Positions 51,274-63,210 of a stretch of 64,000 nucleotides of DNA are shown here, in pieces. The DNA is taken from positions 4,402,722 through 4,466,721 of the forward strand of contig JAMKCF010000002.1 in the NCBI GenBank assembly GCA_023634235.1, given 5' to 3'. The first letter of the stretch is position 1. Every line of letters begins with the position of its first letter. The notes below the pieces were generated by a model. That model was not told where the DNA came from. It made no database searches and saw only the letters and a list, made by a program, of their open reading frames with translations. Made by a program: the position numbers and the translations under genes. The DNA comes from Pisaster brevispinus (taxonomy: Eukaryota; Echinodermata; Asteroidea; Forcipulatida; Asteriidae).

Positions 51274-51857
51274 TGGGGCATCTAGAGGGAACAGTTGGGT
51301 GCGGGGCATATAGAGGGAACAGTTGGGGCGGGGCATCTAGAGGAAACAGCCGGGTGAGGGGCATCTAGAGGGAACAATTGGGTGCAGGGCATCTAGAGGG
51401 AACAATTGGGGGCGGGGCATCTAGAGGAAACAGTTGGGTGCGGGGCATCTAAAGGGAACAGTTGGGGGCGGGGCTTTCAGAGGGAACAGTTGGGTGCGGG
51501 GCATCTAGAGGGAACAGTTGGGGTGGGGCATCTAGAGGGAACAGTAGGGGGCAGGGCATCTAGAGGGAACAGTTGGGTGCGGGGCATCTAGAGGGAACAG
51601 TTGGGTGCGGGGCAACTAGATGGAACAGTTAGGTGCGGGGCATCTAGAGGGAACAGTTGGGTGTGGGGCATCTAGAGGGAACAGTTGGGGGCGGGGCATC
51701 TAGAGGGAACAGTTGGGGGCGGGGCATCTAGAGGGAACAGTTGGGTGCGGGGCATCTAGAGGGAACAGTTAGGTGCGGGGCTTCTAGAGGGAACAGTTGG
51801 GTGCTTGGCATCTAGAGGGAACAGTTGGGGCTGGGGCACCCAAAGGAAATAGTTTAG
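51274..51857. repeat. Minisatellite array B next to a receptor tail exon
   Basis: About 20 units of the same family as array A, with more divergent edge units. The last unit degenerates into CCCAAAGGAAATAGTTTAG, which forms the acceptor-like border of the tail fragment starting at 51858. Confidence 0.93.
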
Positions 51858-52007
51858 GGCATTCTTATCCTCTTCATTGTCTATTTCATCATCAACATTT
51901 TCCTTCTCATCAAACATCGACATCTTAAGATCACCAAGGAGAAGGAAACCAATGTAGCCAAAGCTGATCCCTACATGGAGCTGCAACCAACGGATGACAA
52001 GACGTGA
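51858..52007 (+). pseudogene. Ig receptor tail fragment, unit 1
   Basis: The 49-codon frame encodes a hydrophobic helix (ILILFIVYFIINIFLLI), a basic stop-transfer segment (KHRHLKITKEK) and ADPYMELQPTDD, then a stop. It matches the start of the unit 2 tail (55035 onward) almost residue for residue. The match stops at the point equivalent to 55173 and resumes at 56797, so the rest of the tail and about 1.6 kb of downstream sequence were deleted. No ectodomain exons lie upstream within the window. Confidence 0.8.
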
Positions 52008-52800
52008 TCAAGCTTTCGTTAGCAGAATGTGATGTCACAATGCAAATCATCATTTTGATATTGACATCTTATCTTAAGATGAATCTTTAATTTGTGAAAT
52101 CTCAGTTTTGTTGTAAAATCACGACAACTCAAGCCGGACCGTGGTCTTTAACCGTCAGTTGCCTTGGCTTGGTTTGGTCAATTCCCAGAGCCACTGGTGA
52201 GTTGGGTTTTTTGTTGTCAACACATCAGATTTCATCCAGAACAAGAAACGTTACTTTTCATGTTATTGTGTGTGTCTTGTTTTCCTGGTCGGCCAGTTGT
52301 AAATGTTTTTAAGTTGACAATAAACACTCTTCTGACGAGAGATGAATATTCTTGTTTGTTTTAAGGTTTTGCTGTAAATGATGGATTTATATAGATGAAA
52401 CTGCAAAGGTGGGATAGGGGAGCTCATCCTTTTAAAAACACGGATTTGTTACGAGAGAGTAAAACTGTTTCTGATGACTACATCATCTTCTTACAAATTG
52501 TCAAAATTAAAGGACTAATATGTATATAAATAAAGGAAATTGTGTGTCAAAGACTCAATACATGAGTTTACACTTCGGCAATATGTTTAAAGTTGCAAGG
52601 CCTGTTTTATGCCGGATCATCTTTTTTTTACCAGTTTTTTCTTTGGAACAAATTTTAACAGATGATACTGTTTTAACACAAAAAATCTATCGCGTATGCG
52701 ACGACAACGACCAAATGCATGCAACATGCAAAACTGTTTGTACATGGCTGGTGGACGTTAGATAATGTAAGAATCCAGACAATAGTTCATGTTTAAATGT
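52008..52800. repeat. Receptor downstream block R, copy 1
   Basis: Aligns with 56797-57550 (TGATCAAGCTT, AACCGTCAGTTGCCTTGGCT, AATTGTGTGTCAAAGACTCA). It is part of the tandem duplication of receptor units. No conserved open frame. Confidence 0.85.
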
Positions 52801-53077
52801 TTACCTAAACATTGACGGTTTTTTTCGTGCAATACCGCAAGTGAAAGCTTTCAACTTTCTCGAATCTATAAAACAGCTGTTTAAAATTGAGATCAAAATT
52901 GTAAGTGGGCTCAAACAGGCAAACAATTGGACCTAGCATTATTTTTTTAAAACGAAGGTTCTGATTCGAACTCTCTTGTTATTTCAACTTAGAAGTCGCA
53001 TTATTATAATAAGAGGAATAATCGAAAAATGACATTCAGTCATAAAAATTTACTTTACCCCCCCAAAAAAAAAAAAA

Positions 53078-60039: not shown

Positions 60040-60165
60040 AAACAAATCCAATTCAATCAGGAGAAACACAGCAGGCTTTTTTGTAATGGTTCACATTTTT
60101 TAAGTTCAATGAAAAGTCAAAACCTAGACTGAATCCAAAACTGAGATCGCAGTAAAAGAGACGCG
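60040..60165. repeat. Conserved leader of minisatellite array D
   Basis: Related to 40545-40663 before array A, so leader and array behave as a unit. Confidence 0.8.
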
Positions 60166-63156
60166 GTGCATTTAGAGGGAACAGTTGGGTGCGGGGCATC
60201 TAGAAGGAACAGTTGGGTACGGGGCCTCTAGAGGGAACAGTTGGGTGCGAGGCCTCTAGAGGGAACAGTTGGGTGCGGGGCATCTAGAGGGAACAGTTGG
60301 GTGCGGGGCATCTAGAGGGAACAGTTGGGTGCGGGGCATCTAGAGGGAACAGTTGGGTACGGGGCATCTAGAAGGAACAGTTGTGTGTGGAACATCTATA
60401 GGGAACAGATGGGTGCGGGGCATCTAGAGGGAACAGTTGGGTGCGGGGCATCTAGAGGGAACAGTTGGGTACGGGGCATCTAGAGGGAACAGTTGTGTGT
60501 GGAACATCTATAGGGAACAGTTGGGTGCGGGGCATCTAGAGGAAACAGTTGGGTGCGGGGCATCTAGAGGGAACAGTTGGGTGCGGGGCATCTAGAGGGA
60601 ACAGTTGTGTGTGGAACATCTATAGGGAACAGTTGGGTGCGGGGCATCTAGAGGAAACAGTTGGGTGCGGGGCATCTAGAGGGAACAGTTGGGTGCGGGG
60701 CATCTAGAGGAAACAGTTGGGTGCGGTGCATCTAGAAGGAACAGTTAGGTGCGGGGCATCTAGAGGGAACAGTTGGGGGCGGGGCATCTAGAGGGAACAG
60801 TTGGGTGCGGGGCATCTAGAGGGAACAGTTGGGTGCGGGGCATCTAGAGGGAACAGTTGGGTGCGGGGCATCTAGAGGGAACAGTTGGGTGCGGGGCATC
60901 TATAGGGAACAGTTGGGTGCGGGGCATCTAGAGGGAACAGTTGGGTACGGGGCATCTAGAGGGAACAGTATGGTGCGGGGCATCTAGAGGGAACAGTTGG
61001 GTGCGGGGCATCTAGAGGGAACAGTTGGGTACGGGGCATCTAGAGGGAACAGTTGGGTGCGGGGCATCTAGAGGAAACAGTTGGGTGCGGTGCATCTAGA
61101 AGGAACAGTTAGGTGCGGGGCATCTAGAGGGAACAGTTGGGGGCGGGGCATCTAGAGGGAACAGTTGGGTGCGGGGCATCTAGAGGGAACAGTTGGGTGC
61201 GGGGCATCTAGAGGGAACAGTTGGGTGCGGGGCATCTAGAAGGAACAGTTAGGTGCGGGGCATCTAGAGGGAACAGTTAGGTGCGGGGCATCTAGAGGGA
61301 ACAGTTAGGTGCGGGGCATCTAGAGGGAACAGTTGGGTGCGGGGCATCTAGAAGGAACAGTTAGGTGCGGGGCATCTAGAGGGAACAGGTAGGTGCGGGG
61401 CATCTAGAAGGAACAGTTAGGTGCGGGGCATCTAGAGGGAACAGTTAGGTGCGGGGCATCTAGAGGGAACAGTTAGGTGCGGGGCATCTAGAGGGAACAG
61501 TTAGGTGCGGGGCATCTAGAGGGAACAGTTAGGTGCGGGGCATCTAGAGGGAACAGTTAGGTGCGGGGCATCTAGAGGGAACAGTTGGGTGCGGGGCATC
61601 TAGAGGGAACAGTTAGGTGCGGGGCATCTAGAGGGAACAGTTAGGTGCGGGGCATCTAGAGGGAACAGTTAGGTGCGGGGCATCTAGAGGGAACAGTTGG
61701 GTGCAGGGCATCTAGAGGGAACTGTTGGGGGCGGTGCATCTAGAGGGAACAGTTGGGTGTGGGGCATCTAGAAGGAACAGTTGGGGGCGGGGCATCTAGA
61801 GGGAACAGTTAGGTGCGGGGCATCTATAGGGAACAGTTGGGTGCGGGGCATCTAGAGGGAACAGTTGGGTGCGGGGCATCTAGAGGGAACAGTTGGGTGT
61901 GGGGCATCTAGAGGGAACAGTTGGGTGCGGGGCATCTAGAGGGAACAGTTGGGTGCAGGGCATCTAGAGGGAACTGTTGGGGGCGGGGCATCTAGAGGGA
62001 ACAGTTGGGTGCGGGGCATCTAGAGGGAACAGTTGAGTGCGGGGCATCTAGAGGGAACAGTTGGGTGTGGGGCATCTAGAGGGGACAGTTGGGTGCAGGG
62101 CATCTAGAGGGAACAGTTGGGTGCAGGGCATCTAGAGGGAACAGTTGGGTGTGGGGCATCTAGAGGGGACAGTTGGGGGCGGGGCATCTAGAGGGAACTG
62201 TTGGGGCGGGGAATCTAGAGGAACAGTTGGGTGCGCGACATCTAGAGGGAACAGTTGGGTGCGGGGCATCTAGAGGGAACAGTTGGGTGCGGGGCATCTA
62301 GAGGGAATAGTTGGGGGCGGGGCATCTAGAGGGAACAGTTGGGGCGGGGCATCTAGAGGAACAGTTGGGTGCGGGGCCTCTAGAGGGAACAGTTGGGTGC
62401 GGGGCATCTAGAGGGAACAGTTGGGGCGGGGCATCTAGAGGGAACAGTTGGGTGCGGGCATCTAGAGGGAACAGTTGGGTGCGCGACATCTACAGGGAAC
62501 AGTTGGGTGCGGGGCATCTAGAGGGAACAGTTGGGTGCTGGGCATCTAGAGGGAACAGTTGGGTGCGGGGCATCTAGAGGGAACAGTTGGGTGCGCGACA
62601 TCTAGAGGGAACAGTTGGGTGCGCGACATCTAGAGGGAACAGTTGGGTGCGGGGCATCTAGAGGTAACAGTTGGGTGCAGGCCATCTAGAGGGAACAGTT
62701 GGGTGCGGGGCATCTAGAGGGAACAGTTGGGTGCGCGACATCTAGAGGGAACAGTTGGGTGCGCGACATCTAGAGGGAACAGTTGGGTGCGGGGCATCTA
62801 GAGGTAACAGTTGGGTGCGGGGCATTTAGAGGGAACCGTTGGGTGCGGGGCATTTAGAGGAAACAGTTGGGTGCGGGGCATCTAGAGGAAAAAGTTGGAG
62901 TCGAGGCATCTAGAAGGAACAGTTGGGTGTGGGGCATCTAGAGGGAACAGTTGGGGGCGGGGCATCTAGAGGAAACAGTTGGGGGCGGGGAATTTAGAAG
63001 GAACAGTTGGGGCGGGGCATCTAGAGGGAACAGTTGGGTGCGGGGCATCTAGAGGGAACAGATGGGTGCGCGACATCTAGAGGGAACAGTTGGGTGCAGG
63101 GCATCTAGAGGGAACAGTTGGAGGCGAGGCATCTAGAGGGAACAGTTGGGGGCGGG
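60166..63156. repeat. Minisatellite array D (about 105 copies)
   Basis: Same 28 bp family but more uniform than array A; most linkers are GGGTGCGGGG or AGGTGCGGGG. Local higher-order structure includes a GTGTGTGGAACATCTATAGG variant recurring at about 110 bp spacing (60383, 60493, 60607) and a block near 60726 repeated near 61089. A GTGCGCGACATC variant marks the last third. Confidence 0.97.
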
Positions 63157-63210
63157 GCAGTCAGGCAGACACACTCAGTTGAGAAACCATACCAGAATGT
63201 TAACACTTGT
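63157..63210 (+). pseudogene. C-terminal remnant of an Ig receptor tail (unit 3)
   Basis: The codons directly after array D read AVRQTHSVEKPYQNVNTC. The unit 2 C-terminus reads AVKQLQSSAHRPYQNINKC before its stop. One residue shorter and past the stop position it reads on, so it is a relic. It proves that array D occupies a former receptor gene. Confidence 0.75.

Follow-up and report, generated by a model that had tools for sequence, protein, structure and literature searches.

Why should one tandem repeat end, more than once within a single stretch of a sea-star genome, directly against the tail of a membrane receptor? The stretch in question, 64,000 nucleotides of Pisaster brevispinus (contig JAMKCF010000002.1; hereafter the window), carries four arrays of a 28-bp minisatellite together with pieces of receptors with immunoglobulin (Ig) domains, and is best explained as a decayed tandem cluster of a sea-star family of Ig membrane receptors, for which an immune function is assumed here from the Ig domains. 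An earlier note on this DNA held that the same repeat abuts receptor tails again and again, either as a part of the gene, in a stalk or an intron, or as a hotspot that decapitates and reshuffles receptors. The observations described below suggest that the repeat marks receptor breaks and perhaps causes them, and the fused receptors look dead, not usefully reshuffled.

The repeat is one and the same throughout, as had been supposed: Tandem Repeats Finder (TRF) assigns a common 28-bp unit to all four arrays, which lie in a single orientation, and an 18-mer of the unit occurs 293 times at three or fewer mismatches, against 0.04 occurrences expected. The arrays, and the left flank (LF) found at two of them, are as follows.

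40550..40666, + strand: left flank (LF) before array A; it shares about 78% identity with 60043-60161, continuing into the first repeat unit
40667..45108, + strand: array A, some 160 copies of the 28-bp unit (TRF, self-comparison)
51275..51857, + strand: array B, including a degenerate last unit at 51837-51857 (TRF range 51275-51838; unit analysis)
54784..55034, + strand: array C, nine units including a degenerate last unit (TRF range 54784-55031), its left edge directly after the codons of the membrane helix TM1
60043..60162, + strand: left flank LF of array D, common to array A
60163..63159, + strand: array D, about 107 units (TRF)

Together the arrays fill 8276 of the 64,000 bases (13%), and they show features of a rearranging minisatellite, with 28-bp units (in the range of 10-100 bp), from about 9 to 160 copies, and internal block duplications. 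Self-comparison of array A shows a 1174-bp block (42074-43247) that recurs at 43205-44378 with 99.9% identity and an offset of 1131 bp, which is a sign of recent rearrangement of the array DNA; the best internal blocks of array D are only about 94% identical. Exact unit types common to any pair of arrays are few, two to six per pair, so each array has largely turned over separately. The exact 18-mer is absent from viral contigs and has one match in prokaryote genomes, a single Flammeovirga copy that we take as chance, and the array's own translation, used as a protein query, found nothing at E<=1 among 1430 candidates. Literature on Asterias and starfish minisatellites, repeats and Ig genes yielded no report of the 28-bp repeat, which is not proof of its absence from print, and the word 'minisatellite' is absent from the Asterias amurensis genome papers searched for it.

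The receptor pieces beside arrays B and C, and a paralogous gene elsewhere in the window, are these.

51858..52007, + strand: receptor tail B, the second half of the membrane helix TM2 and the start of the cytoplasmic tail, then truncated (tblastn with P0001 and P0015; 91.6% identity to 55037-55179 with arrays masked)
53318..53792, + strand: DNA upstream of head C, of which 53318-53784 is a paralogue of 57860-58330 (85% over 475 aligned positions)
53793..54784, + strand: receptor head C, with signal peptide, Ig domain(s), Thr-rich stalk and TM1 (Ig_3 E 3.7e-07; P0015 and P0014 matches; three-frame translation)
55035..55373, + strand: receptor tail C, the second half of TM2, a complete tyrosine-rich cytoplasmic tail and a stop (open reading frame 54993-55373; P0001 85% and P0015 76% identical)
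18361..20415, + strand: paralogous receptor gene without array, with head, TM1 and another tail, also broken by stops (P0015 tblastn E 5e-27; TM1 91% identical to that of C)

What an unbroken member looks like can be seen in P0015, a 414-residue protein of A. amurensis (the source also of the other named receptor relative, P0007), in which two Ig matches (Ig_3, E 4.1e-12 over two stretches; V-set, E 6.3e-08; Pfam), a stalk, TM2 and a tail of the tail C type run through one protein without repeat-encoded residues. It has the Ig domains, helix and tyrosine-rich tail of an Ig-superfamily membrane receptor, the helix and tyrosine motifs having been read by eye. With tail C as query all 13 candidate proteins scored E<=1, and with head C two of 1462 candidates scored E<=0.01, P0015 being one of them. 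Aligned to the window with tblastn, P0015 places residues 1-257 on head C, 306-414 on tail C and 306-351 on tail B. Nothing in the window matches residues 258-305, which comprise the stalk and the first half of TM2, at better than E 0.79, so tails B and C begin in mid-helix, within TM2. P0015 has no sequence relative in PDB at E<=0.01; against viral contigs one stretch matched a pattern and none encoded a relative, and positions 54600-55400 had no match in phages.

Head C carries one in-frame stop (54084-54086) and two frameshifts, read by three-frame translation. Its 74% identical relative P0014 is, by our reading, in the same frame as head C beyond the first of these frameshifts, so that lesion is probably old. 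The copy of the head C upstream region at 57860-58330 (85% identical) stops just before the start codon, and the DNA after 58330 matches 22069-22865, not a head, a case of head loss without an array; a 70-copy AAC microsatellite (53078-53285) lies in the gap between paralogous blocks upstream of head C. The heads at 18361-20415 and 53793-54784 have no visible intron from signal peptide to membrane helix, and the family may be single-exon or retrocopy-derived.

At arrays B and C the contact with a receptor tail is direct. Proteins with related tails match from 51861 and 55038 (P0002) or from 51864 and 55041 (P0001, P0015), immediately after the last repeat unit. The adjacency claimed in the earlier note is therefore real for both, although the two are not independent. 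The last units of B and C have three changes from the consensus in common, while none of the 293 other units has two or more of them, and identity between the two loci is about 91% from that unit on into the tail. Because of this shared mutated unit and the identity that continues from it, we conclude that the right junctions of B and C, to judge by these sequences, are a single event copied by duplication, as the blocks 51999-53784 and 56798-58330 likewise are duplication copies. The independent tail junctions thus number two and not three.

The left edge of array C tells of a different break. The 91% homology between head C and the 18361-20415 gene ends sharply at 54784, within the coding frame and at the very base at which TRF begins the array, and this edge cuts a different receptor subtype right after its helix TM1; the 18361-20415 gene continues at this point into another tail, with no array after TM1. 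Locus C accordingly looks, from its alignments, like a fusion of a subtype-1 head with TM1, the array, and a subtype-2 remnant of TM2 with its tail. Compared across all four arrays, the left flanks of A and D are alike and those of B and C are not, whereas the right flanks of B and C are alike and those of A and D are not.

The third junction, at the right end of array D, is a junction separate from that of B and C, and here the tail is less secure.

63157..63210, + strand: probably the final ~16 codons of a receptor tail (AVRQTHSVEKPYQNVNT...), from weak tblastn matches and resemblance by eye to the C-termini of P0003, P0006 and P0008
63381..63693, + strand: DNA 3' of tail D, a paralogue of 16732-17073 (75% identity, E 1.67e-67)

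The peptide matches of tail D stand at E 0.056 (mostly over array DNA), 0.65, 1.1 and 5.5, the tail was looked for at that position, and tblastn with P0015 gave no match to it at E<=10. Its identity as a tail end is thus probable, weak from the peptide alone and mainly supported by the paralogous DNA downstream, of which 43 bp match DNA downstream of tail C. The statement that B, C and D each end against a tail consequently stands for the first two and in a weaker form, as a tail end only, for D.

Arrays A and D have about 117 bp of left flank in common, while the DNA before it differs. The right edge of array A, the longest of the four, adjoins no tail and opens instead into a block of another kind.

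45109..51274, + strand: block between arrays A and B, with a DUF1280 transposase-like stretch (Pfam DUF1280 E 7.5e-16 at 46364-46690) followed by a palindromic GGCGTTATAACGCC cluster (inverted repeats)

The DUF1280 stretch lies about 1.3 kb past the right edge of A, and the GGCGTTATAACGCC palindromes form a dense cluster after it. The DUF1280 family has been assigned to putative Chapaev transposases, placed in one clade with RAG1 (PMC3985635). This block may, we suspect, have split a single array into A and B, although paired transposon ends were searched for and none was found: the sequence at the right end of the block (CACTG-type) has no second copy in the window, and no inverted match between the ends of the block is better than E 2.2. 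The repeat meets receptor tails at B, C and probably D, as had been proposed, but not at the right edge of A.

Could contacts of this kind arise by chance? With the four arrays placed at random in 200000 trials, and a contact taken as any of three tails lying no more than 25 bp from the right end of an array, 198404 trials gave no tail near a right end, 1594 gave one, two gave two and none gave three. Even one array-tail contact thus appears in fewer than 1% of trials, and since B and C are one event, the contacts to be counted are two. The association with receptor tails has been seen in this one 64-kb window and in one public contig. The latter, 577 bp long, yields the predicted protein P0005, which starts MFLTLSFGCPSPTVP and then enters the tail at YMELQPTED; seven of its residues are identical to a reverse reading of the last unit of array B, the longest match outside the arrays being five, and it is the only one of 15 relatives tested to hold any of four repeat-encoded motifs. 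Its sequence suggests another array-tail contact, inverted, at another point and in other DNA.

The explanation that we favour, tentatively and with a confidence somewhat short of even, is that a rearranging minisatellite is the place at which receptor copies have been truncated and fused, leaving pseudogenes, and that the array acts passively, as a stretch prone to misalignment or breakage. In outline, the GC-rich 28-bp minisatellite would have come to occupy a breakpoint within a single member of the family, replacing everything upstream of mid-TM2, with both the order of this step and its cause being our inference. The truncated copy and its neighborhood were then duplicated in tandem, as the last unit and flanks common to B and C show, giving rise to the right sides of both arrays. 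Further breaks, to go by the anatomy, ended in array DNA, at the left of C in a subtype cut after TM1 and, less firmly, at the right of D within the last tail codons. If A and B are indeed one split array, three arrays would read LF to TM2, TM1 to TM2, and LF to tail end. The array would be a passive site of end joining or unequal exchange, as opposed to a programmed signal for recombination, and the products of array-linked breaks in the window would be pseudogenes. The flank pattern as a whole (lefts A=D, B and C; rights A, B=C and D) is what might be expected of a shared, exchange-prone array. The earlier picture of decapitated receptors fits this anatomy, with the stalk and half of TM2 unmatched and the left of C cut after TM1, the repeat being a putative cause of the breaks; a reshuffling of working receptors would be hypothetical, head C being broken.

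Several points weigh against this explanation. The window has no more than two independent tail junctions, and the tail of D is weakly matched. Array A ends before the transposase block, so that specificity for receptors is incomplete. The truncations at 52002, where the homology of tail B to tail C ends (with a stop at 52005-52007), and at 58330 have no array at either point. The same flank pattern would follow from two or three independent end-joining events at the edges of arrays, and P0005 may be an assembly artefact. Canonical G-quadruplex (G4) motifs, with loops <=7, cover 0 nt in all four arrays, fewer than in shuffled sequences. Canonical G4-driven fragility of the CEB1 kind, a candidate mechanism for the arrays, was rejected on that count of zero. 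Relaxed motifs, with loops <=12, cover 4395 of 4442 nt in A, 429 of 584 in B, 191 of 253 in C and 1755 of 2997 in D, in each case above the maximum of 100 shuffles.

Of the other explanations, the one that survives best is that the repeat is inactive and merely hitchhiked: the minisatellite landed once by a tail and was duplicated with it, and D and the left of C are deletions of the usual kind, whose ends fell by accident in arrays because these offer a large target. We consider this possible but doubtful. It draws strength from B and C being one event, from the array-free truncations just mentioned, and from the extent of the arrays, which is such that some breaks should end there by default. 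The array edges nevertheless meet three cut receptor parts, namely a tail (B=C), the end of a tail (D) and a head (the left of C), which is many for chance breaks in 13% of the window, and the recent duplication inside array A shows that the array DNA does rearrange.

Less likely again, and in our view unlikely, is that the array is intronic and grew before an exon that encodes the protein from mid-TM2 through the tail; the tail exon would then always begin at the end of the array. This would account for the exact position of B and C, whose tails begin right after an AG (TTTAG followed by G in B, TTAAG followed by G in C), and there is a GT at the left edge of array C. The 25 bases ending in that AG are, however, poor in pyrimidine (32% in B and 28% in C), and five of the 15 relatives (P0001, P0002, P0007, P0009 and P0015) cross the junction point without repeat-encoded residues, as judged by eye, although two of them, the named gene models P0007 and P0015, are possibly spliced, and the read-through is not decisive. 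The upstream exon, for the stalk and start of TM2, is the segment of P0015 that was not found in the window; the left edge of array C lies in a coding frame that apparently continues unspliced in the 18361-20415 gene; and junction D falls deep inside the tail. The other form of the claim that the repeat belongs to the gene, as a coding stalk, we reject, as every frame, on both strands, is closed by stops in each of the four arrays, and with 60-bp flanks included the longest stop-free run spans 51 of 84 codons for C and 64 of 194 for B.

It is improbable that LF and array together form a mobile element inserting into genes, such as one that carries a minisatellite inside it. The flank of about 117 bp and the array that follows it are common to A and D whereas the preceding DNA is not, as an element would have it, but there is no common right end, B and C are without the left flank, and both tail and head are truncated, not interrupted; the searches for element ends were confined to the A-B block. 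Very improbable is an assembly error, in which a jump between copies of the repeat fused unrelated flanks, for although different flanks joined at identical repeats are typical of mis-assembly, the 64 kb contain no N, arrays C (about 250 bp) and B (about 580 bp) would be easily spanned by a long read, and the mutations common to B and C across the junction point to real copying. We give equally little credence to the minisatellite being a dedicated exchange platform that, in sea stars, repeatedly moves Ig heads of one subtype onto tails of another, whether in coelomocytes or in the germ line, and of which the broken copies would be the debris; this would predict intact array-bearing hybrids elsewhere in the genome or in other individuals.

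The remainder of the window holds further duplications and mobile DNA. A minus-strand retrotransposon at 7156-14125 encodes a reverse transcriptase and a tyrosine recombinase (RVT_1 and Phage_integrase matches) and has split direct repeats (7962-8322 equals 13765-14125 at 99.4%, and 7156-7844 equals 8318-9006 at 100%), a layout that we take to be that of Ngaro/PAT-type DIRS elements; a paralogous copy of the region lacks it at 37897/37898, which looks like an empty site. Two collagen-C1q genes (5610-6452 and 36185-36997) lie in a large segmental duplication, of about 1-16337 against 29815-40167, that is 83-97% identical per collinear block, the C1q and collagen domain matches coming from a test of the second copy (36185-36997). 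Reverse-transcriptase-like open frames on the + strand at 24310-25622 have a weak RVT_1 match (E 0.0014) below the Pfam cut-off.

Among known systems the closest precedent is found in the Sp185/333 clusters of the sea urchin, which the receptor cluster resembles in outline without being a member. There, GA repeats surround the Sp185/333 genes and GAT repeats edge the segmental duplications, both having been proposed to act in deletion and duplication (PMC3091723, PMC5103432); the GA microsatellites lie about 300-790 nt away from the start and stop codons of the predicted genes, and pseudogenes are said in a section heading to be absent (PMC5103432). Common to both are an echinoderm family in tandem segmental duplications and tandem repeats at stereotyped positions, the immune role being assumed in our case. 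The gene family, the class of repeat, its position and the state of the genes differ: in place of GA and GAT microsatellites outside intact genes, the window has a 28-bp minisatellite inside coding sequence at points of truncation, its arrays adjoin truncated coding sequence, and its genes are broken by stops and frameshifts. The duplicated segment of B and C has its left edge inside the arrays and its right edge (53784/58330) at no array.

The BG genes of the chicken are likewise clustered genes for Ig-type membrane proteins, and they include many hybrids in which the 5' part comes from one lineage and the 3' part from another; these hybrids are presented as expressed genes and put down to deletion or unequal crossing-over (PMC4046983). 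The clustering and the hybrid joins are similar to those described here, but the word minisatellite is absent from that text, whereas in the window the joins fall at an array and yield a broken product. Another point of comparison is given by the human GC-rich minisatellites CEB1, CEB25 and HRAS1, which in yeast stimulate gross chromosomal rearrangements and change internally, the effect of CEB1 being strongly dependent on G4 (PMC3486850). The arrays of the window are similarly GC-rich and, by their sequence, internally rearranged, and differ from CEB1 in being without a canonical G4 motif. If the association does not extend beyond this locus, the window is a clear example of how tandem duplication can make one accident resemble a repeated rule; if it proves genome-wide, it would provide exact breakpoints for asking how invertebrates remodel their Ig receptor repertoires, and would place beside Sp185/333 another echinoderm receptor-type family whose turnover is tied to one tandem repeat.

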